From the NCBI RefSeq assembly GCF_003149085.1, contig NZ_QGDT01000002.1, forward strand, positions 372,001 through 436,000: DNA of 64,000 nt, written 5' to 3'. A model generated the notes under the pieces. That model searched no databases and had not been told where the DNA came from. It saw nothing but the letters and a program-made list of their open reading frames with translations. The DNA is from Dyadobacter jejuensis. Its GTDB lineage: Bacteria; Bacteroidota; Bacteroidia; Cytophagales; Spirosomataceae. Positions 14,553 to 58,800 of this stretch are shown one piece after another. Numbering within the stretch: the stretch's first letter is position 1; each line of letters begins with the position of its first letter. The translations under genes were made by a program, and so were the position numbers.

Positions 14553-15800
14553 ATGATAGAAAAAAAACAATTATATAGCACGGCCGTTGAACGCGAAAAG
14601 GCTGTTTTAGTGGCCGTAAGCACGCAAAAACAAGGCGCAGAAAAGACCAAAGAATACCTTCAAGAACTCGCCTTTCTAGCCTCCACGCTGGGAATCGATA
14701 CCGTACAGACGTTTACCCAAAATCTGGAACGTACCGATATTAAGACCTATACGGGTAAGGGCAAGTTGGAGGAGATTGTCGCTTTTATTAAGGCGGAACC
14801 GGTAGACATGGTCATCTATGACGACGATCTCTCTCCCGCTCAGGTGCGTAACCTAGAAAGGGTATTCGAAGACATCAAAGTGATAGACCGTAGCCTGCTC
14901 ATCCTGGACATCTTTGCGATGCGGGCCCAAACGGCTCAGTCGAAGCTACAGGTGGAGCTGGCCCAATATCAGTATATGTACCCTCGACTTACTAGGCTGT
15001 GGACCCACCTTAGCCGCCAGTCGGGTGCTGGGGTAGGGATGCGTGGACCCGGTGAAAAGGAACTCGAGACGGATAGACGTATCGTGAAAGACCGTATATC
15101 TTTCCTAAAAGAGAAATTGGAGAAGGTAGACAAACAGAGTGTCACCCGCCGTAAGGAAAGAGACCGCTTGGTACGTGTAGCCATAGTAGGCTATACCAAC
15201 GTGGGCAAGTCCACCTTGATGCGCAGCCTATCGAAGGCCGATGTGTTTGCAGAAAATAAACTTTTCGCTACCGTGGACTCCACCGTTAGGAAGGTGAATA
15301 TGGAAAACATCCCCTTCCTGCTTACCGACACCGTAGGGTTTATCCGTAAACTACCTACCACATTGATCGAGTCCTTTAAATCGACACTCGACGAGGTTCG
15401 CGAAGCCGATATACTGGTGCATGTGGTGGATATATCCCATCCCGCTTTCGAAGAACATCTGGACGTTGTCAACAAAACTTTGGTAGAAATAGGCGCCGCC
15501 GACAAAGCCACCGTTTTGGTGTTCAACAAAATAGACCTCTACAAGCCCGACTTCAACAAAGACGAGGACAACCTCCCTTTCGAAGACGAGGAGGATCAAG
15601 AGGAAGAACCTGTATTGGAACAGCTTAAGAAGAGCTATATCGCCAAAAAAGCCGAACATGTAGTCTTTATTTCTGCCGAAAAAAAGGAGAATATGGAAGA
15701 ACTTAGAAGCACCCTTTTTGGCATGGTGAAAGAAAAGCATTTCTCGATCTACCCCAACTGGCTCGACCTCGGCTATACGCCCGTCACTTCCGAGGAATAA
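14553..15800 (+). CDS. hflX: GTPase HflX, ribosome rescue/splitting factor
   Basis: 415 aa. Starts with the HflX N-terminal ATP-related domain (…TYTGKGKLEEI…DDLSPAQVRNLERV), then the linker MRGPGEKELETDRR that marks the family, and a coiled-coil helix. The GTPase domain follows: G1 GYTNVGKS, G2 region ATVDST, G3 DTVGF, G4 NKID, G5 SAEK. HflX binds the 50S subunit and splits stalled or hibernating 70S ribosomes under stress. An acidic insert (NKDEDNLPFEDEEDQEEE) before the C-terminal domain is typical of Bacteroidota versions. It ends in a strong terminator. Confidence 0.96.
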   Translation: MIEKKQLYSTAVEREKAVLVAVSTQKQGAEKTKEYLQELAFLASTLGIDTVQTFTQNLERTDIKTYTGKGKLEEIVAFIKAEPVDMVIYDDDLSPAQVRNLERVFEDIKVIDRSLLILDIFAMRAQTAQSKLQVELAQYQYMYPRLTRLWTHLSRQSGAGVGMRGPGEKELETDRRIVKDRISFLKEKLEKVDKQSVTRRKERDRLVRVAIVGYTNVGKSTLMRSLSKADVFAENKLFATVDSTVRKVNMENIPFLLTDTVGFIRKLPTTLIESFKSTLDEVREADILVHVVDISHPAFEEHLDVVNKTLVEIGAADKATVLVFNKIDLYKPDFNKDEDNLPFEDEEDQEEEPVLEQLKKSYIAKKAEHVVFISAEKKENMEELRSTLFGMVKEKHFSIYPNWLDLGYTPVTSEE

Positions 15801-15842
15801 AGTCTTGCTATTGTAAGAGATTTTAAGCAATTTTGCACCCTG

Positions 15843-15873
15843 AAAAGATATCCCCCAGCGGGATATCTTTTTT
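15843..15873 (+). terminator. Rho-independent terminator of hflX
   Basis: 12-bp stem aaaagatatccc / gggatatctttt with a 5-base loop and a T run to 15873. It stops exactly one base before the first tRNA-like unit. Confidence 0.88.
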
Positions 15874-15874
15874 A

Positions 15875-16004
15875 GACTGCGTAGTTCAACGGATAGAATA
15901 GGAGTTGTCGGACGCGACCCCGGCTAAACTCTAGATATGGCAGAGGACGCTAGCGACATTAATACACTAATATTTTGAAAGAATAGATTTAATACATAAT
16001 AACT
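15875..16004 (+). pseudogene. tRNA-Arg-like tandem unit 1 (damaged copy)
   Basis: First of three 130-base units. It keeps the acceptor 5' strand, D arm and both strands of the anticodon stem of the intact tRNA at 16265. The anticodon is replaced by an 18-base GC-rich block (15907-15924), and the T arm and acceptor 3' strand are replaced by an 18-base block (15940-15957) that is partly complementary to the first. The 3' part differs from units 2 and 3 (GCTAGCGACATT against GCTGGTGACATG). The A/T-rich tail (TAATATTTTG…) is shared by all units. It cannot fold as a normal tRNA. Confidence 0.75.
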
Positions 16005-16134
16005 GACTGCGTAGTTCAACGGATAGAATAGGAGTTGTCGGACGCGACCCCGGCTAAACTCTAGATATGGCAGAGGACGCTGGTGACATGAATTCACTAA
16101 TATTTTGAAAGAATAGATTTAATACATAATAACT
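16005..16134 (+). pseudogene. tRNA-Arg-like tandem unit 2 (damaged copy)
   Basis: Second 130-base unit, identical to unit 1 except for a few bases near its 3' tRNA-like end (GGTGACATGAATTC). The 18-base block in place of the anticodon and the lost T arm are preserved exactly, so the unit was copied after the damage arose. Confidence 0.75.
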
Positions 16135-16264
16135 GACTGCGTAGTTCAACGGATAGAATAGGAGTTGTCGGACGCGACCCCGGCTAAACTCTAGATATGG
16201 CAGAGGACGCTGGTGACATGAATACACTAATATTTTGAAAGAATAGATTTAATACATAATAACT
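16135..16264 (+). pseudogene. tRNA-Arg-like tandem unit 3 (damaged copy)
   Basis: Third 130-base unit; one base different from unit 2 (AATAC instead of AATTC). Its A/T-rich tail leads straight into the intact tRNA, which therefore sits as a fourth member of the same 130-base ladder (starts at 15875, 16005, 16135, 16265). Confidence 0.75.
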
Positions 16265-16339
16265 GACTGCGTAGTTCAACGGATAGAATAGGAGTTTCCT
16301 AAACTCTAGATATGGGTTCGATTCCCGTCGCGGTCACCA
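16265..16339 (+). tRNA. tRNA-Arg (anticodon CCT)
   Basis: Complete cloverleaf. The acceptor GACTGCG pairs with CGCGGTC (one G-T pair). The D arm is GTTCAACGGATAGAAT. The anticodon stem GGAGT/ACTCT encloses the loop TTCCTAA with anticodon CCT, which reads AGG. The T arm ATGGG-TTCGATT-CCCGT is intact. Discriminator A and a genome-encoded CCA end at 16339. The promoter is probably in the A/T-rich tail of the preceding unit; a terminator follows. Confidence 0.93.
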
Positions 16340-16340
16340 A

Positions 16341-16374
16341 GAGAGGTTGTCTTATCAAGGCAGCCTCTTTTTTT
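16341..16374 (+). terminator. Terminator of the tRNA-Arg transcript
   Basis: GAGAGGTTGTC pairs with GGCAGCCTCT (two G-T pairs), with a short loop and a run of seven T, directly after the CCA of the tRNA. Confidence 0.8.
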
Positions 16375-16389
16375 GAAACAATTTATCAA

Positions 16390-16460
16390 TGGCAGTTCTC
16401 CGCTAAACTCTAGATATGGCCGGGGGCGCGGGCGACTTCGATTTCCGTCGGAGGCACTAA
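16390..16460 (+). pseudogene. tRNA-Arg-like 3' fragment
   Basis: Lacks the acceptor 5' strand and D arm but keeps CTAAACTCTAGATATGG of the tRNA. It then carries an 18-base GC-rich block (16419-16436) and a T-arm/acceptor remnant TTCGATTTCCGTCGGAGGCAC close to the intact tRNA 3' end. The 18-base block matches the complement of the block at 15907-15924 at 15 of 18 positions, so this fragment preserves the less decayed partner of the loop insert seen in units 1-3. Confidence 0.65.
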
Positions 16461-16740
16461 TGCCAGGCTTAGGTCTGGCTTTTTTTGTGGATAGGAGGTA
16501 ATTTCATTAAAAAAATATGTCACCCCTTCGGGGTTTGGAAATCATCTACCTCATGACCTTTCTATAAATATTTCACCCTTTCAGGGTTGCAATTTCTTGT
16601 TTTGAAGCCAATAAGTCGAATGCCAGCACGTCACCCTTTTGGATTTGAAGAACTTACAATATTTCTAAAGCAATCAATATTTCACCCTTTCAGGGTTATA
16701 TATTTTTAGTTTAGCTACTAACTGGTGCAAGGGTCAAGCA
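16441..16740. repeat. REP-like cluster A and left direct repeat of the island
   Basis: Bases 16441-16639 are a direct repeat of 20101-20298. The block contains palindromic REP-like units: CACCCCTTCGGGGT near 16521, CACCCTTTCAGGGT near 16573 and again near 16682, and a decayed CACCCTTTTGGAT near 16632. Arms are 5-6 bases (ACCCT/AGGGT or ACCCC/GGGGT) and units are separated by 50-60 bases. Confidence 0.7.
16462..16486 (+). terminator. Terminator after the tRNA fragment
   Basis: GCCAGGC / GTCTGGC stem (one G-T pair) with loop TTAG and seven T. Its presence suggests the fragment was once the end of a transcribed tRNA gene. Confidence 0.7.
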
Positions 16741-16788: not shown

Positions 16789-17196
16789 TCAATCAAAAAA
16801 ACCTAGTCTCCTTTTCGTTTTACCTTTCAAAATTTCCGAATCTCTAATCCTATTTCTTAAGGTTTCCAAATCAGCAGTCGATAGTTGTCCAATAATAATC
16901 TTAGGGTTATTTTTAACATGAAGTTCCAATTCTGAAGATATCAATTCCTTTAACTGCGAACAATCCACAAAACAATCCTTAGTAAGATAATCCCTTCCCT
17001 CTTTACTTAGAGGAATATGATGACTCTTTAATAAAATATTGAAATTGACTTTTAAGTTGATTTTGGAATTAATGTAAACAGAGGCTAAGGTAACTCTATC
17101 ACTAGACTGTGATACAAGAACAAACCTCTTAATTTTTGGAGGATTCGTATCCTTCACTTTCATTCTAAATACTTGACCAACCTTAACTAAGGACAT
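16789..17196 (-). CDS. Putative toxin partner of the Panacea-domain protein
   Basis: 135 aa from the ATG at 17196; a TTG start ten codons upstream would overlap the previous gene. The N-terminal half is beta-rich (VKVGQVFRMKVKD…KRFVLVSQSSDRVTLASVYINS), reminiscent of PemK/MazF-like small-barrel toxins. It continues with YLTKDCFVDCSQLKEL and a basic tail (KGKTKRRLGFFD). I do not recognise a catalytic site with certainty. It lies 13 bases downstream of the Panacea gene on the same strand, and Panacea antitoxins are encoded next to very diverse toxins, which is the main reason for the toxin call. AT-rich like the rest of the island. Confidence 0.55.
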   Translation of the reverse strand: MSLVKVGQVFRMKVKDTNPPKIKRFVLVSQSSDRVTLASVYINSKINLKVNFNILLKSHHIPLSKEGRDYLTKDCFVDCSQLKELISSELELHVKNNPKIIIGQLSTADLETLRNRIRDSEILKGKTKRRLGFFD

Positions 17197-17209
17197 CTTA
17201 AGAAAGATA

Positions 17210-17740
17210 TTATTCAAATTCCGCAAATCGGAACGACAAAAGATCTTCTATATAATCTAACATTTCTTTTGATGCCCCCCCAGCTTCAGCGATCAAGACT
17301 GGATCTATCGATCGGCCCAACTTTGCTCCTTTCCACGCTATGTCATGAGACTTTTCAGTCAACTTGCCAAAATCCATACTTTTATTTTCGTCAATAGATT
17401 CATCTAGGCAGATAACCTCTGTTTCTGATAGCCATTCCATGTCTGGCTTCACTTTATTTACAACATAATAAACAGACTCAACATCAAAATAACCTTGGTA
17501 GGTATTCTTACCGCTCCTTAAACTCTTCATAATATCATACGCCAAGGATGGGACCGGTCCATTATCCATTTTTATAAATACATCTTCCGAAATCGACGCA
17601 CCATACCGCACAAGGTGTTTTTGCTCGGCAAAATATAATATTTTAAACAGTTTATGGAAATCACATTGATTATCTAAACTCTCTAAAACATAGAGCATAG
17701 AATTGATTACACCGTCAACCTTTTCGTCATTTGTGTCCAT
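17210..17740 (-). CDS. Panacea (DUF4065/SocA-like) domain protein, probable antitoxin
   Basis: 176 aa. Residues ~25-150 show the Panacea pattern: FHKLFKILYFAEQKHLVRYG, the DVFIKMDNGPVPSLAYDI segment with its conserved GPV, and LTEKSHDIAWKGA near the end. Panacea proteins neutralise many unrelated toxins and occur as two-gene toxin-antitoxin pairs. Here the gene leads, with the putative toxin 13 bases downstream. A -7 box on the minus strand (17909-17916) lies about 170 bases upstream. Toxin-antitoxin function is inferred from family and layout. Confidence 0.75.
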   Translation of the reverse strand: MDTNDEKVDGVINSMLYVLESLDNQCDFHKLFKILYFAEQKHLVRYGASISEDVFIKMDNGPVPSLAYDIMKSLRSGKNTYQGYFDVESVYYVVNKVKPDMEWLSETEVICLDESIDENKSMDFGKLTEKSHDIAWKGAKLGRSIDPVLIAEAGGASKEMLDYIEDLLSFRFAEFE

Positions 17741-17908
17741 GCTAACGTGCTCTATAATTTAAAGATGGCTATTATTTATCAACAATTGGCGCTAAAAACA
17801 GCACCCAAAGGATTAAATTCAACCTTTTTAGAATTCCAATCTCGCCAACCGATTTTAGTCAGATTATTCACTTACCTTAATAGACCTTCGATGGTAAGAT
17901 TTTATGTA

Positions 17909-17916
17909 CAAAGGTA
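17909..17916 (-). promoter_or_regulatory. -7 box upstream of the Panacea gene
   Basis: On the minus strand TACCTTTG, embedded in a GTAC-CTTT-GTAC palindrome as at the HYC_CC_PP promoter. The distance to the start codon (~169 bases) implies a long leader, so a closer promoter may also exist. Confidence 0.4.
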
Positions 17917-18033
17917 CAAAAAATACATATTAGAAAAAATATGGTCTTGCATGTATCTGTAAACAACAAAAAACTTAACTAATTGACATTCATAGACATT
18001 ACCTATCCACGTAGAGGTCAAAAAAATGAGACT

Positions 18034-18620
18034 ATAAATATTTCACCCTTTCAGGGTTTTAATTTCTTGATTTGAAGCCAATAAGTCGAAAGCCAGCACG
18101 TCACCCTTTTGGATTTGAAGAACATTCAACTTCTCTATAGCAATCAATATTTCACCCTTTCAGGGTTCATGTTGTCTAAAACGGACGCGATTTATTATGG
18201 ATTGGTGGGTTTAAGCATTTACAGTTTGGTAATCAATAGTATGTCGCAACATTGGGTACGAATGCATTATTTTAAGACTTATACGGCTTTGGTTCGACTG
18301 CACGGCAGTCGCAGATTCCACGGTTTATGGTTATCCTATAAACGTAAGATCCCGATGGGATCTTTTCGGCAGTGTTTTTCAACCTTATAAAGTATCAATC
18401 AAAATCCAATGCAACATTATCCCAGTGGGATAAAACGTCTATAGAAACACCCTCAATAATGCATCCTTGACGATGCCGTAGGTATCGAACAGATAAACAG
18501 CAAATCAATCAAAATGATCTCAGCCTTTCAGGGTTTATATCATTAACGGAAGCGATTTGAAATGATGAGTTATGAGGAAATCGATGAGGTGATAAATACG
18601 AGGCTATTGGAGGAATAATA
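18034..18620. repeat. REP-like cluster B with gene remnants
   Basis: Holds the same palindromic units as cluster A (CACCCTTTCAGGGT near 18043 and 18152; a decayed form near 18523). It also has a second module, 18311-18508, with GATCCCGATGGGATC, TATCCCAGTGGGATA and ACGATGCCGTAGGTATCG. This second module recurs at 20301-20492. Between the modules, from 18168, is a short frame (…KTDAIYYGLVGLSIYSLVINSM…) that looks like a remnant rather than a gene. At 18561-18617 an 18-codon frame (MMSYEEIDEVINTRLLEE) is too short to judge. Confidence 0.65.
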
Positions 18621-18750
18621 AATTATGGTAAGTGACCGAATATTTAAACTTGGTAGCTCCCCATGTTTTTTTGGTGTTTTACCGACTCACAACTATTATA
18701 ATATTACCGAATAATCAAAACTCCGTGCATTATCATACTCCGTTATTGAT

Positions 18751-18769
18751 AATCATAGTATTTATGATT
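18751..18769 (+). promoter_or_regulatory. Palindrome upstream of the AbiH gene
   Basis: AATCATA - gtatt - TATGATT, a perfect 7-base inverted repeat 40 bases before the AbiH start codon, in a very AT-rich stretch. It is a plausible operator or promoter-overlapping site. The rest of 18621-18809 shows no gene. Confidence 0.4.
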
Positions 18770-18809
18770 AGAATATGACTTTTTAACACTCTCCCTTAAT
18801 CCTTTAAAT

Positions 18810-20039
18810 ATGAATCGAGTTGTAATAATTGGCAATGGTTTTGATGTAGCTCATAGGCTTCAAACTAAATATGTGGATTTTGTAAATTACCTGAAACAAG
18901 AATTCATTAATTACTTAAATGACTCAGACTTTAATCACAGGTGCTTAAATCATCCACTTTTTCAATTTGGTACTAAAGAAGCAGTTGTAGTAAACAAAAA
19001 TTCCGATCCAAAGTATTTTTTAACAGAAGAACGGAGCATCGAAACCTGGCAAGATTTAACTAAAATTATACGTTATAGGTATGATACTGATATGTCTACA
19101 GGAGTCGTGGTATCGAACAAGAACTTCTTACTAAATTATTCATTTGGTCATTATGAAAAAAATTCATGGGGTGGATTCGAAAATGACTATAAAGATCTTC
19201 TTTTGAAACTAAAGGACAACGAATATCTTTTTGGCATATTCGAGTTGCCCATTGAATATACAGTAGAAAAACTGAACGAGGAAATAGGAGAAATTATGAA
19301 ATTGCTCTATGATTATCTTATTGAAATGGAAAAAAAGAAAGCTGAATTTAGTTCAGAAATATTTGCCAATCTATTTACACCACCTTTGTTTTATTGGGGT
19401 TCTAATAATATTGAAAAGCAAAGACATGGTTTGTTCAACACTAACTCCATATACTTGCCCCATCATAAGGAGTACTTTAATTCCGCAAAAGAAAATAATA
19501 AACTCAATACGGTTCTCTTTCTAAATTTCAATTATACTTCCACCATAGAACAATATTTACTTACACCAGAGAATAAATTCTATCGTGAACCTTTGCTTAG
19601 CCCTGATATTAGAGATACAGTTAAAACATTGATTAGATATATTCACGGAAGTTTAAAAGATAAAGATTTAAGCACTATAATTTTTGGCTACGGGGATGAA
19701 TTAGGCGAATACCAATCACAACTAGAGAATTCCTCAAATGAATTTTTGAAACATGTAAAATCTGTCCTTTACACCCGAAAGCCCTATTATAGGGAAATGA
19801 TCGATTTTATAAATTCTGAACCATTTGATATAGTTATTTATGGTCATTCATGCTCTAATACCGACAGGACTTTGTTAAATACATTATTTGAACATGAAAA
19901 TTGTATTTCAATTCAACCGTATATTCATGATAAAGAGGATCTGTCAATTTACACTAATATATATCGATGCTTTAAAGACAAAACTTTAATGCGATCCAGG
20001 GTTGTTGATGCAACAAATACAATATCTATTAAAAATTGA
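18810..20039 (+). CDS. AbiH-family abortive-infection protein
   Basis: 409 aa. The N-terminus RVVIIGNGFDVAHRLQTKYVDFVNYL is the hallmark of the AbiH family (nucleotide-binding-like GNGFD, then the H-x-L-x-T-x-Y segment). Later hallmarks are FLNFNYTSTIEQYL, an IRYIHGSLKD motif, IIFGYGDE and YGHSCSNTDRTLL near the end. AbiH proteins give phage resistance by abortive infection; the mechanism is poorly known. The gene is AT-rich, flanked on both sides by REP-like clusters, and forms with the Panacea pair a small defence block beside a tRNA gene. Length agrees with the family. Confidence 0.82.
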   Translation: MNRVVIIGNGFDVAHRLQTKYVDFVNYLKQEFINYLNDSDFNHRCLNHPLFQFGTKEAVVVNKNSDPKYFLTEERSIETWQDLTKIIRYRYDTDMSTGVVVSNKNFLLNYSFGHYEKNSWGGFENDYKDLLLKLKDNEYLFGIFELPIEYTVEKLNEEIGEIMKLLYDYLIEMEKKKAEFSSEIFANLFTPPLFYWGSNNIEKQRHGLFNTNSIYLPHHKEYFNSAKENNKLNTVLFLNFNYTSTIEQYLLTPENKFYREPLLSPDIRDTVKTLIRYIHGSLKDKDLSTIIFGYGDELGEYQSQLENSSNEFLKHVKSVLYTRKPYYREMIDFINSEPFDIVIYGHSCSNTDRTLLNTLFEHENCISIQPYIHDKEDLSIYTNIYRCFKDKTLMRSRVVDATNTISIKN

Positions 20040-20100: not shown

Positions 20101-20492
20101 ATTCCCTTCGCGGTCACAAGAGCCAGGCTTCGGTTTGACTTTTCTTGTAAATAGGGAGCTATTTCTTTAAAAATTATGTCACCCCTTCGGGGTTTGAAAA
20201 TCATCTACCTCATGACCTTTCTATAAATATTTCACCCTTTCAGGGTTGCAATTTCTTGATTTGAAGCCAATAAGTCGAAAGCCAGCACGTCACCCTTTCG
20301 CAGATTTAGCGGTTTATGGTTATCCTATAAACGTAAGATGCATCTTTTCGGCAGTGTTTTCAACCTTATAAAGTATCTATCAAAATCCATTGCTACATTA
20401 TCCCAGCGGGATAAAACGTCCATAGAAATACCCTCAATGATGCATCCTTAACGATGCCGTAGGTATCGAACAGATAAACAGCAGACCAACCA
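20101..20492. repeat. REP-like cluster C and right direct repeat of the island
   Basis: Opens with ATTCCCTTCGCGGTCAC-AAGAG, nearly the 3' end of the intact tRNA-Arg plus its flank (16321-16343). It continues as a copy of 16441-16639 up to 20298, including CACCCCTTCGGGGT and CACCCTTTCAGGGT units. At 20298-20301 it jumps directly into the second module known from cluster B, so it equals cluster B with about 200 bases deleted. No gene is visible from 20040 to 20652. Confidence 0.7.
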
Positions 20493-55804: not shown

Positions 55805-58800
55805 TTAGAACCCGAAACGTACCCCTACTAGATATGATTTGGCTACCGGATAGGCACCTTCATCTACACCCATATGAGTATCTTGGTTGTTATTTCCTGA
55901 AGCACGCAGGTTGATGTCAGGATCCAAACCGGTATATTTGGTGAGTGTGAAAAGATTCTGCCCCTGAATATACACCTGTGCCGAATTGATTTTTATCTTG
56001 TTAAGGAGAGTATTAGGTACGGTATAAGTAAGCTGAATATTCTTCAATCTCAAATAAGAACCATCTTCCAAGAAATAGGATGATACCTGCTGGCTGGTCG
56101 CATCGCCTGAGTTAAGACGTGGCAATTTGGCATCGTCGCCCGGCTGCTTCCATGAATTATAAAGCATGTCTTTCGAACGGTTTCCTTGAAATACGTTGAA
56201 GTCTGTCCAGTAGCGCGTGTAGTTAAAAATCTGGTTACCATATACGCCCTGACCGAATAATGACAAGTCGAAACTCTTATAGGCCACGTTCAAATTAATA
56301 CCATAATTAAAATCGGGATGAGGATTCCCAATGATAGTACGGTCGGCGGCAGTAATTATTCCGTCGCCATTTATATCCCTGAACTTGAAGGTACCTTCAC
56401 GGGTATATGAGCCAAATTTAGGAGCGGCATCGGCCTCTGCCTGATCTTTTATAACGCCATCCACATAATAACCATAGTAACTCGCTATAGGTGAGCCTGC
56501 ACGGGTCGCCGACATGGCTGGAAGCCGTGTACTGAAACCAAAAATGGTAGCAGAAGGATTGTCATTCAGTTTGACTACGTTATTCTTATACTTACCAAAG
56601 TTCAGACCTACACTAAAGCTAAAGTCTCCTAATTTCTCACGGTAGTTCAACCCTATGTCGAAACCTTTGTTGTTGATTTCACCGATGTTGGTGTATGGCA
56701 CCGAACCACTACCTGCAGTACGAGGGATGGCAATTTGAGTCAACATGTCTGTGGTGGTTCTATCGTACAAGTCCAAAACAAATTCAATACGGTTGTTTAA
56801 CAAAGCTGCATCTAAACCAATATTGGTGGATGTATTGGTCTCCCATTTACCTAACGAATTACCGAATTGTACCAGATCGAATCCACCAACGATAGAAGAA
56901 CCTGTACCGTTGATATCATATCCGTTATTGGAAGGATCGGCAGCATAAAGTGTATAGGAATTGTATACGTTAGGAATCTGCTGGTTACCAGTTTTACCCC
57001 ATCCAGCCCGAACTTTCAGGTCGTCGAGAAACCCTGCTTTTTTAAAGAACTCTAACTCCGATAAACGTACACCGACAGAAAAGGCTGGGAAAACCCCATA
57101 ACGATTCGCTTCAGAGAAACGAGATGAGCCATCGCGACGTAAAGTAAAGTCGGCCAAAAGCAAATCTTTATAACCATAATTCACCTTACCAAACTGCGAG
57201 AATAAAGCACTTTCTACTGCACCCGCACCTGAATTACTGAGTCCTGAGGCCGATCCTGCATCCAAGTACCGATAGTCTAGATCGTCGAATGCGAATGCAC
57301 TTCTACTCGCTCTAAATCCAAATCCATATGTTTTTACCGATTCTGTACCTAGCAAAACATTGAAAGTATGTACGCCCAACTTTTTGGAGTAGTTTAAAGT
57401 ATTAAACCAAGTGAGCGACCGATCTAAATCGTTGATCACATTTAGACTGTTGGCATTTCTGGCCTCTGCTGCCTCAATATCACGGTGAAAATATTCAGAA
57501 CGATTGTACTGATTATATTCCAGTCCTAAACTTGTTTTGGCAGTAAGACCTTCCAATATTTCCACACTAGCAAACACATTACCAAAGATGTGTGAACCCT
57601 TGGTGATATTGTCTTTTTCACGGTAAAGACGAGCCAAAGGATTGGGCGCATTACCAAGGTTGCTACCACGGCTACCTGCAAATCCATTATAAGGCGAGGT
57701 ATTGGTACCACCTAGAGCCACAGGCCCGCCTGTAATATCAAAAACAGGGATAATAGGGTGAACCCGAATCGCAAACATAATAGGATTACTCTCATCATTA
57801 TTGGTAATTCCTTGGCGTTCATCGTAGGAGAAAGTCAGGTTTTCTCCAATTGTCACCCTACCTTTTGTAAATTCTGTATTGGCCCTAACAGAGTATCGCT
57901 TGTAGTTGGTATAACGAAGGATACCATTTTGCTTGAAATAATTGGCGGAAATTGCATACTTAGCCGATTGAGATCCGCCTGAAGCGCCAATTTGATAATT
58001 CGAAATAGACGCTGGGTCGAAAATCACGTCCTGCCAGTCGGTACCGGCTTTATTAGCCTTGGTAATGTTAAAAGCCGTTTTCCCTAAATTAGGATCCGCT
58101 ATGTCGTTGGTATAGGTAAAATTGGCAGGCAATTCCCCATATATATTAGGATAGATATAATCCGCCATCGTTTGATTCCCCTGCTCGTCAAATTTATACT
58201 GAGCAGATGGGGAAGTAATCCAAGGGCTTTTCCCAGCGCCAATGTCCGACTGAAACAAATAATCGCCCAATTCCTTGGCGTTCAATAGATCCAACATTTT
58301 ACCTGGACGCTGTGTACCCGTGTAAAAGTCGAAGGTGATGCTCGGTGCTCCCGACTTACCCTTTTTGGTCGTGATAATCACAACCCCGTTGGCAGCCCTC
58401 GCTCCATAGATAGACGCAGCCGATGCGTCCTTTAACACCTGCATCGATTCGATATCATTGGGATTGATTTGATTGAGCGTGCCCTGCGTAGGCACTCCAT
58501 CGATAACATACAAGGGGCTGTTATTATTAATGGAGCCAAACCCACGGATACGAACCATAGTTCCTCCGCCTGGCGAATTATCGTTTCCGACAGTTACCCC
58601 GGAAGCCCGTCCTTGCAGCATTTGTGTAACACTTGCCGAGGGTACTGCGGTAAGTTCCTTGGCGTCTATCACCGCTACCGCACCTGTTATGTCGGCCTTA
58701 CGCTGCACGGTATACCCAGTTACCACTACTTCTGTTAGGCTTTTGATATCTTCATTAAGCGTTACATCGATTAAAGTCCGATTGCCTATTGTGATTTCTT

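Follow-up and report, generated by a model that had tools for sequence, protein, structure and literature searches.

What is the ladder of tRNA-like sequence that leads up to the tRNA-Arg(CCT) gene of Dyadobacter jejuensis, and how did it come about? The window studied here is a stretch of 64,000 nucleotides (assembly GCF_003149085.1, contig NZ_QGDT01000002.1, positions 372,001 to 436,000 of the forward strand); counted from its first base, the three tRNA-like units begin at positions 15875, 16005 and 16135; a further step leads to the intact tRNA at 16265, and all the steps measure exactly 130 bases. We think it probable, and well short of certain, that the ladder is a decaying tRNA-Arg(CCT) array that has received two insertions of a genus-restricted, non-autonomous and very small mobile repeat, GC-rich and with a net length of about 16 bp. 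To judge from the sequences compared, such inserts look like some of the smallest mobile DNA elements so far. Their length is quantised, they are found repeatedly, in unrelated genes as well as in copies of various tRNAs, they leave no target duplication at T loops, and one of them is present in one genome and absent from another at an orthologous site.

The array lies entirely on the + strand. Unit 1 (15875..16004) consists of the 5' half of tRNA-Arg(CCT), block 1, the 3' stem of the anticodon arm with the variable region, block 2, and an AT-rich linker (15958..16004) which, within the sequence scanned for it, occurs in this array only. Block 1, GTCGGACGCGACCCCGGC, is an insert of A type in the anticodon loop; it lies at 15907..15924 in unit 1, at 16037-16054 in unit 2 (16005..16134) and at 16167-16184 in unit 3 (16135..16264), and replaces three tRNA bases, for a net gain of 15 by direct count. 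Block 2 sits at the T loop (15940..15957, 16070-16087 and 16200-16217, respectively), we read it as a diverged A-type insert in the opposite orientation, and the part of the tRNA 3' of it is absent from the units. Units 1 and 2 differ at 4 of 130 positions, units 1 and 3 at 3, and units 2 and 3 at 1; all these differences are confined to unit positions 78-90, that is, to block 2 or the bases just 3' of it. The intact tRNA-Arg(CCT) (16265..16339; ARAGORN, and Rfam RF00005 with 62.5 bits) is followed by what is probably its own terminator (16340..16374) and by a partial copy (16403..16457) with the anticodon 3' half, a T-loop insert CCGGGGGCGCGGGCGA at 16420-16435, the T arm and acceptor 3' side, and a terminator-like sequence of its own. 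A search with the 130-bp unit matches no other locus in the window's genome.

Much of this had been foreseen in the original prediction, a note made from the sequence alone, which described the ladder with the intact gene as its fourth step and a 3' fragment behind it, the 18-base block inside the anticodon loop of all three units, and the fragment's block GCCGGGGGCGCGGGCGAC, which by direct count does agree with block 1, read as its reverse complement, at 15 of 18 positions. Its suggestion that the units may be pseudogenes also holds, in that ARAGORN and Rfam recognise no tRNA in any of them and a single one, Arg(CCT) at 16265, in the whole window. The same note took the two blocks for parts of one hairpin-forming element, and here it finds no support. 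Block 2 of unit 1 is identical to the reverse complement of block 1 at 12 of 18 positions (direct count). The pairing of the anticodon block with the T block averages 11.94 over 18 distinct units, versus 12.25 when partners are shuffled between units, and 2978 of 3000 permutations reach the observed value; an earlier set of 26 rows, four of them without an anticodon block, gave 11.58 in both cases. Several genomes have CCGGGCGGCCGGTGCC as their T-loop block, and this sequence shows no complementarity to block 1. On the permutation result a paired hairpin between the blocks was rejected, and they are better read as separate insertions, which in the window would be of one type in opposite orientation; more generally, the anticodon blocks look like the T-loop insert family in reverse. 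Entry of inserts into tRNA gene copies, with amplification of the unit afterwards, is the part of the proposal that found support.

How uniform are the inserts? We aligned partial copies to their intact neighbour at 30 tRNA loci each of genomes G000 and G017, at 29 tRNA-Arg(CCT) loci and at 17 loci of other tRNAs, counting inserts of at least 8 nt and calling them distinct by the insert together with its 14-nt flanks. There were 124 inserts in partial tRNA copies, 91 of them distinct. The net length was 16 nt in 49 of the distinct inserts, 15 in 16 and 14 in 7, which places 72 in the range of 14-16 nt; nine more measure 28-44 nt, or about two or three units, and the remaining ten are 8, 10, 12, 13 or 19 nt long. 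The 14-16 nt class comprises 45 distinct strings in 21 similarity types. By position, 48 of the 91 are in the T arm, 29 in the anticodon arm, 13 in the D arm and one in the variable region; most lie in a loop or adjoin one, and the commonest D-arm site (8 of 13) is the 3' side of the D stem. Nine kinds of tRNA, by anticodon, carry inserts, with Arg(CCT) accounting for 61 of 91, partly because its locus was sampled most. Many T-loop inserts begin with CCGGG. The gain at T loops is exactly 16 nt without a duplicated flank, as in GGTCAGGG|GTTCAAAT of tRNA-Thr; we read the change at several sites as 17 nt swapped for 1 nt, and 16 nt plus a substitution fits them equally well.

Two further neighbourhoods may be mentioned beside this survey. 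Around a tRNA-Met of G000 (locus L089, 1000-2170, at about 832 kb of contig C1) some five partial copies occur, and the GC inserts in most of them are long and compound, resembling nested or merged units; at tRNA-Pro(GGG) of the same genome (L215, 1040-1930, contig C16) about eight partial copies have the anticodon arm replaced by GC-rich hairpins, for example TCCCGCCAGGGCGGGA.

The blocks appear to be restricted to the genus. The block CCGGGCGGCCGGTGCCG occurs 28 times in 14 of 24 genomes of the genus and in none of 12 genomes of other genera; GTCGRRYGCGACYCCRRC is found in 8 of the 24 and again in none of the 12, and reversed-pattern controls gave one match and none. We read 18 of the 28 exact copies of CCGGGCGGCCGGTGCCG as lying in tRNA copies, eight in transposase genes and two elsewhere. 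Among named genomes, this block followed by GTTC is present in 42 stretches: in 19 from Dyadobacter it is in tRNA T arms, and 23 from other taxa lie in DNA of 63-79% GC with no visible tRNA-arm context, four of them with GTTCRA next and without a visible T stem. Exact blocks also occur in viral contigs (7 and 55 stretches); the eight contexts of lowest GC content, which were the ones read individually, are 51-63% GC and have no tRNA arm, so that they look like chance, and we rejected an origin from phage.

Outside tRNA copies, blocks are found in transposase genes. The block CCGGGCGGCCGGTGCC interrupts four kinds of them, and leaving out 16 nt joins the reading frames on both sides, clearly in L060/L079, in L071/L073/L075 and in L062, and more weakly in L066/L072. 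Pfam backs the transposase identity from at least one side in each kind (rve_3, HTH_21, DUF772); in L071 both flanking pieces match successive parts of rve_3, and the upstream pieces of L060 and L066 give, respectively, a weak bZIP_2 match only and no match. The base 5' of the block is G in the non-tRNA contexts read, and the G that follows it belonged to the search pattern. Most carriers are truncated or have stops, L062 being otherwise a frame of 449 codons; of the two carriers whose copy number was checked, one is present twice in a single genome and the other once in each of three. An active insertion sequence carrying the block was rejected on these grounds of low copy number and decay: remnants in this state, as the carriers mostly are, testify to insertion and not to present activity of an insertion sequence.

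A-type blocks, in the form GTCGTGCGCGACCCCGG, also occur nine times in G000 in genes that we identify by eye as YD-repeat (RHS-like) genes (L091-L099; contig C1 at 94 and 214 kb, contig C9 at 166 kb), where the insertions are at or near the Y-D motif and do not keep the frame. In genome G012, an A-type block occupies the same place in three near-identical loci (L040, L046, L051), apparently beside 5S rRNA genes, the 5S likewise identified by eye.

A 15-bp D-arm insert is present in genome G008 and absent from G036, with identical flanks, in genomes that are 84.8% identical over 165 kb; the comparison yields 28 indels of 10-40 nt, this insert included. In another pair of genomes, G006 and G021, GC-rich blocks within tandem repeats of GGAGGAA type differ (L305-L314, at 60-260 kb of G006 contig C4; alignment positions 58404 and 140381).

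The ladder proves to be one version of a varied family. A search for the unit, which the original prediction had proposed to make in related genomes, matched 54 of 59 genomes, a count that takes in the window's own: every one of the 37 in the genus and, over the 5' half of the tRNA only, 17 of the 22 outside it. Six of the 36 genus relatives gave no readable locus; in the other 30, a motif count found extra partial copies of tRNA-Arg(CCT) in 17 genomes and none in 13. The extra copies lie on one or the other side of the intact gene and carry GC-rich blocks in the D arm, anticodon loop and T loop, and many are followed by a terminator-like sequence. G017, a single-contig genome, has five insert-bearing units in tandem. 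The original prediction had also allowed for ordinary debris of a known repeat family: similar arrays do exist in relatives and blocks do occur at unrelated loci, and what found no support is that the family is known, given that the titles and abstract openings searched contain no description of such inserts in Dyadobacter or in bacterial tRNA loops.

Do duplicated tRNA debris and inserts belong together? A single script was run on four genomes, at the loci of the best 30 tRNA matches per genome with 1.5 kb on each side. In G000, 7 of 33 tRNA genes had a partial copy nearby, as had 7 of 32 in G017 (where two adjacent tRNA-Asp genes share partial copies), and all 14 had copies with inserts; in two genomes from other families of the order, partial tRNA copies were found at 0 of 34 and 0 of 33 genes. 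From these counts we infer that debris and inserts go together. In G000 and G017 the insert-bearing copies sit beside an intact copy of the same tRNA. In one locus of D. koreensis (L166) a single tRNA was found, and the block-bearing copy is 2.6 kb away from it; therefore, not every copy adjoins an intact tRNA.

We conclude that the repeat family appears to prefer tRNA genes and to be seen where an intact copy survives. A mechanism can be proposed in which a trans-acting enzyme would target hairpin loops that are exposed in tRNA genes and insert the blocks there. Since most tRNA genes are presumably single-copy and essential, an insert in one of them would be lethal unless an intact copy adjoins it; only cells with a tandem duplicate would survive, and it is there, next to an intact copy, that inserted copies would be seen. 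Later, in the lineage of the window, slippage or unequal crossing-over would have extended the array into the 130-bp ladder, whose units would be debris without selected function. A stronger version, which we regard as doubtful, has an active Dyadobacter system that would target the loops of tRNA genes specifically, placing there a GC-rich sequence of 16-17 nt (perhaps with 17 nt replacing 1), and that would be coupled to tandem tRNA duplication: the smallest-known mobile element, with structure-directed targeting and a dedicated enzyme.

A number of results weigh against insertion of a small mobile repeat. No mobilising enzyme turned up: G000 has only two matches to Y1 transposases, one of them with stops, and no block was present in either locus (2.8 and 3.3 kb), and a RAYT/Y1 transposase was rejected as the mover. 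Restoration of a frame fixes the insert length modulo 3 only, and several transposase carriers may be orthologous remnants, which would leave about six independent insertions outside tRNA copies; within them, gene conversion between tRNA copies could exchange blocks, so that not every insert is an independent event. The comparison of G006 with G021, with 27 indels of 10-40 nt, showed no tRNA-loop polymorphism comparable to that of G008 and G036. Searches by exact match are biased to conserved blocks. In six sampled genomes, short GC-rich islands were in no clear excess over an order-2 Markov control, being above it in two and below it in four, and the element would therefore be rare outside its hot targets. 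Finally, across 21 insert types the best stem length within the 16-mers equals that of shuffles (934 of 2000 shuffles reach the observed mean), which leaves a shared structure of the 16-mers unsupported; a mini-hairpin in each of them, with a 4-bp stem and a 4-nt loop, was striking by eye and was dropped on this result.

The alternative that survives best, and that we nevertheless consider unlikely, is that the blocks are immobile: having originated in a tRNA copy on one or a few occasions, they would have been spread as recombination debris by short-homology gene conversion and tandem duplication. The flanks G|GTTCRA, common to the T-loop inserts of different tRNAs, are a possible short homology, block 2 differs between neighbouring units, and the majority of the exact CCGGGCGGCCGGTGCCG copies, as we read them, are in tRNA copies. 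Against conversion of this kind stand the identical 16 nt in four kinds of transposase gene and at two further sites without a tRNA flank, and the A-type blocks within the genes read as YD-repeat genes.

Could the units be selected instead, as tRNA-like small RNAs (decoys or regulators) in which the loop inserts form extended arms? Extra copies recur in more than half of the genus loci, terminator-like sequence is kept in many downstream units, some upstream units stand between promoter and tRNA, and the insert length is constrained. The original prediction had also named tRNA-like small RNAs as an option, and a small structured RNA finds no support in the folds: against shuffled sequence, z is -0.17 for unit 1, 0.37 for unit 3 and 0.83 for the fragment, that is, no extra stability, with -1.62 for the intact tRNA. 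The blocks pair no better than shuffled partners, the 5' acceptor side or the 3' half is missing from many units, the sequences diverge widely between species, and 13 of 30 genomes lack an extra copy at tRNA-Arg(CCT); we hold selected small RNAs to be improbable.

About equally improbable is that a larger integrative or transposable element with tRNA genes as its targets left the blocks behind as footprints, in the form of attachment-site or excision scars. The anticodon and T loops of tRNA genes are classic integrase targets, most inserts have nearly one length, and partial tRNA copies beside an intact tRNA are also what integrase attachment sites look like. The Dyadobacter copies, however, are often full or 5' halves, with both halves of the tRNA often present and inserts in several arms, and not just the 3' part expected of integrase sites; the inserts, with their 21 types, vary a good deal for a fixed scar; and no integrase is found among ten proteins scanned around the window array, a larger block-bounded element not having been searched for. 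An assembly artefact can practically be dismissed: a repetitive array in an assembly of 72 contigs invites the suspicion, but this one lies inside a contig of 697 kb, and arrays of the same kind are present in the single-contig genomes G005, G017, G034 and G036.

If the inserts are small mobile repeats, what are they most like? Small dispersed repeats (SDRs) of 21-27 nt were reportedly described in Nostoc punctiforme and its relatives by Elhai et al. in 2008, and are said to be clade-restricted, nested in other repeats, and proposed as very small mobile elements. The Dyadobacter inserts resemble SDRs in being very short, of near-constant length, dispersed in unrelated contexts with empty sites, and restricted to a clade (blocks in 14 and 8 of 24 genomes of the genus, and in none of 12 of other genera). 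They differ in being about 16 nt long, GC-rich, concentrated in tRNA arms of spare copies and hosted by Bacteroidota, and the shared predicted secondary structure of SDR type is not seen in their 21 types.

Mitochondrial GC clusters of yeast are short GC-rich blocks in AT-richer DNA, variable between strains and merging into longer blocks, with a flanking short direct repeat, AG or ACT, in the yeast type (PMC4478555). The Dyadobacter blocks are likewise short, GC-rich, strain-variable and merging, but their T-loop inserts lack a target duplication and they reside in a bacterial chromosome. Repeats of the REP and REPIN families are short non-autonomous bacterial repeats that are moved by RAYT (Y1) transposases and form extragenic clusters (PMC3116915). 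The Dyadobacter inserts share with them short length, lack of autonomy and repetition in bacterial genomes; they differ in having no inverted doublets, pairing being not above permutation and blocks also occurring singly, in having no block beside the two Y1 matches of G000, and in lying inside tRNA copies and genes. We class the inserts apart from all three because of, in turn, the absence of a shared structure, of a target duplication, and of a Y1 neighbour or inverted doublets. The Dyadobacter inserts would thus work like the very small mobile repeats represented by SDRs and by yeast GC clusters, set apart from both by the features tested.

A mobile unit of about 16 bp, if real, would mark a lower limit of what counts as a mobile element, and its preference for tRNA arms beside a spared intact copy would offer a testable system for the movement of tiny repeats. 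It would also account for a class of confusing tRNA-like debris in an environmental (soil) genus, and the inserts would be a source of strain-variable markers.

Upstream of the array lies hflX (14553..15800, + strand; a GTPase by Pfam GTP-bdg_N/M and MMR_HSR1), the conserved neighbour of tRNA-Arg(CCT) in the genus, matched by tblastn in 18 of 19 loci compared. Between hflX and unit 1 there are, on the same strand, the probable original promoter of the tRNA (15820..15839, ending in TTTTGCACC, which is also found 5' of the gene in relatives) and, between this presumed promoter and the array, a strong terminator-like hairpin with a T run (15843..15873; fold z = -5.82 for the stretch 15840-15875). 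At the tRNA-Arg(CCT) locus of genome G029 (L017) a comparable leader hairpin is present, as are partial copies downstream, and upstream units are absent; either the window's lineage acquired such units, therefore, or G029 lost them.

On the 3' side of the array, the region 16789-20039 holds a SocA/Panacea-like gene (17210-17740) and an AbiH gene (18810-20039). The original prediction had suggested a link with these defence genes, which finds no support: among the 19 loci compared, many of only 3 kb and some from one genome, AbiH and SocA have no match in those of relatives and are matched only in the window's own genome, and HflX is matched in 18 of the 19. Hairpin repeats ACCCTTTCAGGGT (or ACCCCTTCGGGGT) cluster around these two genes, at 16522-16696, 18045-18534 and 20181-20246 of the window; with one mismatch allowed there are eight matches, all on one strand, and a broken Y1 transposase (L192) has a further hairpin of this type at a distance of about 1.1 kb.
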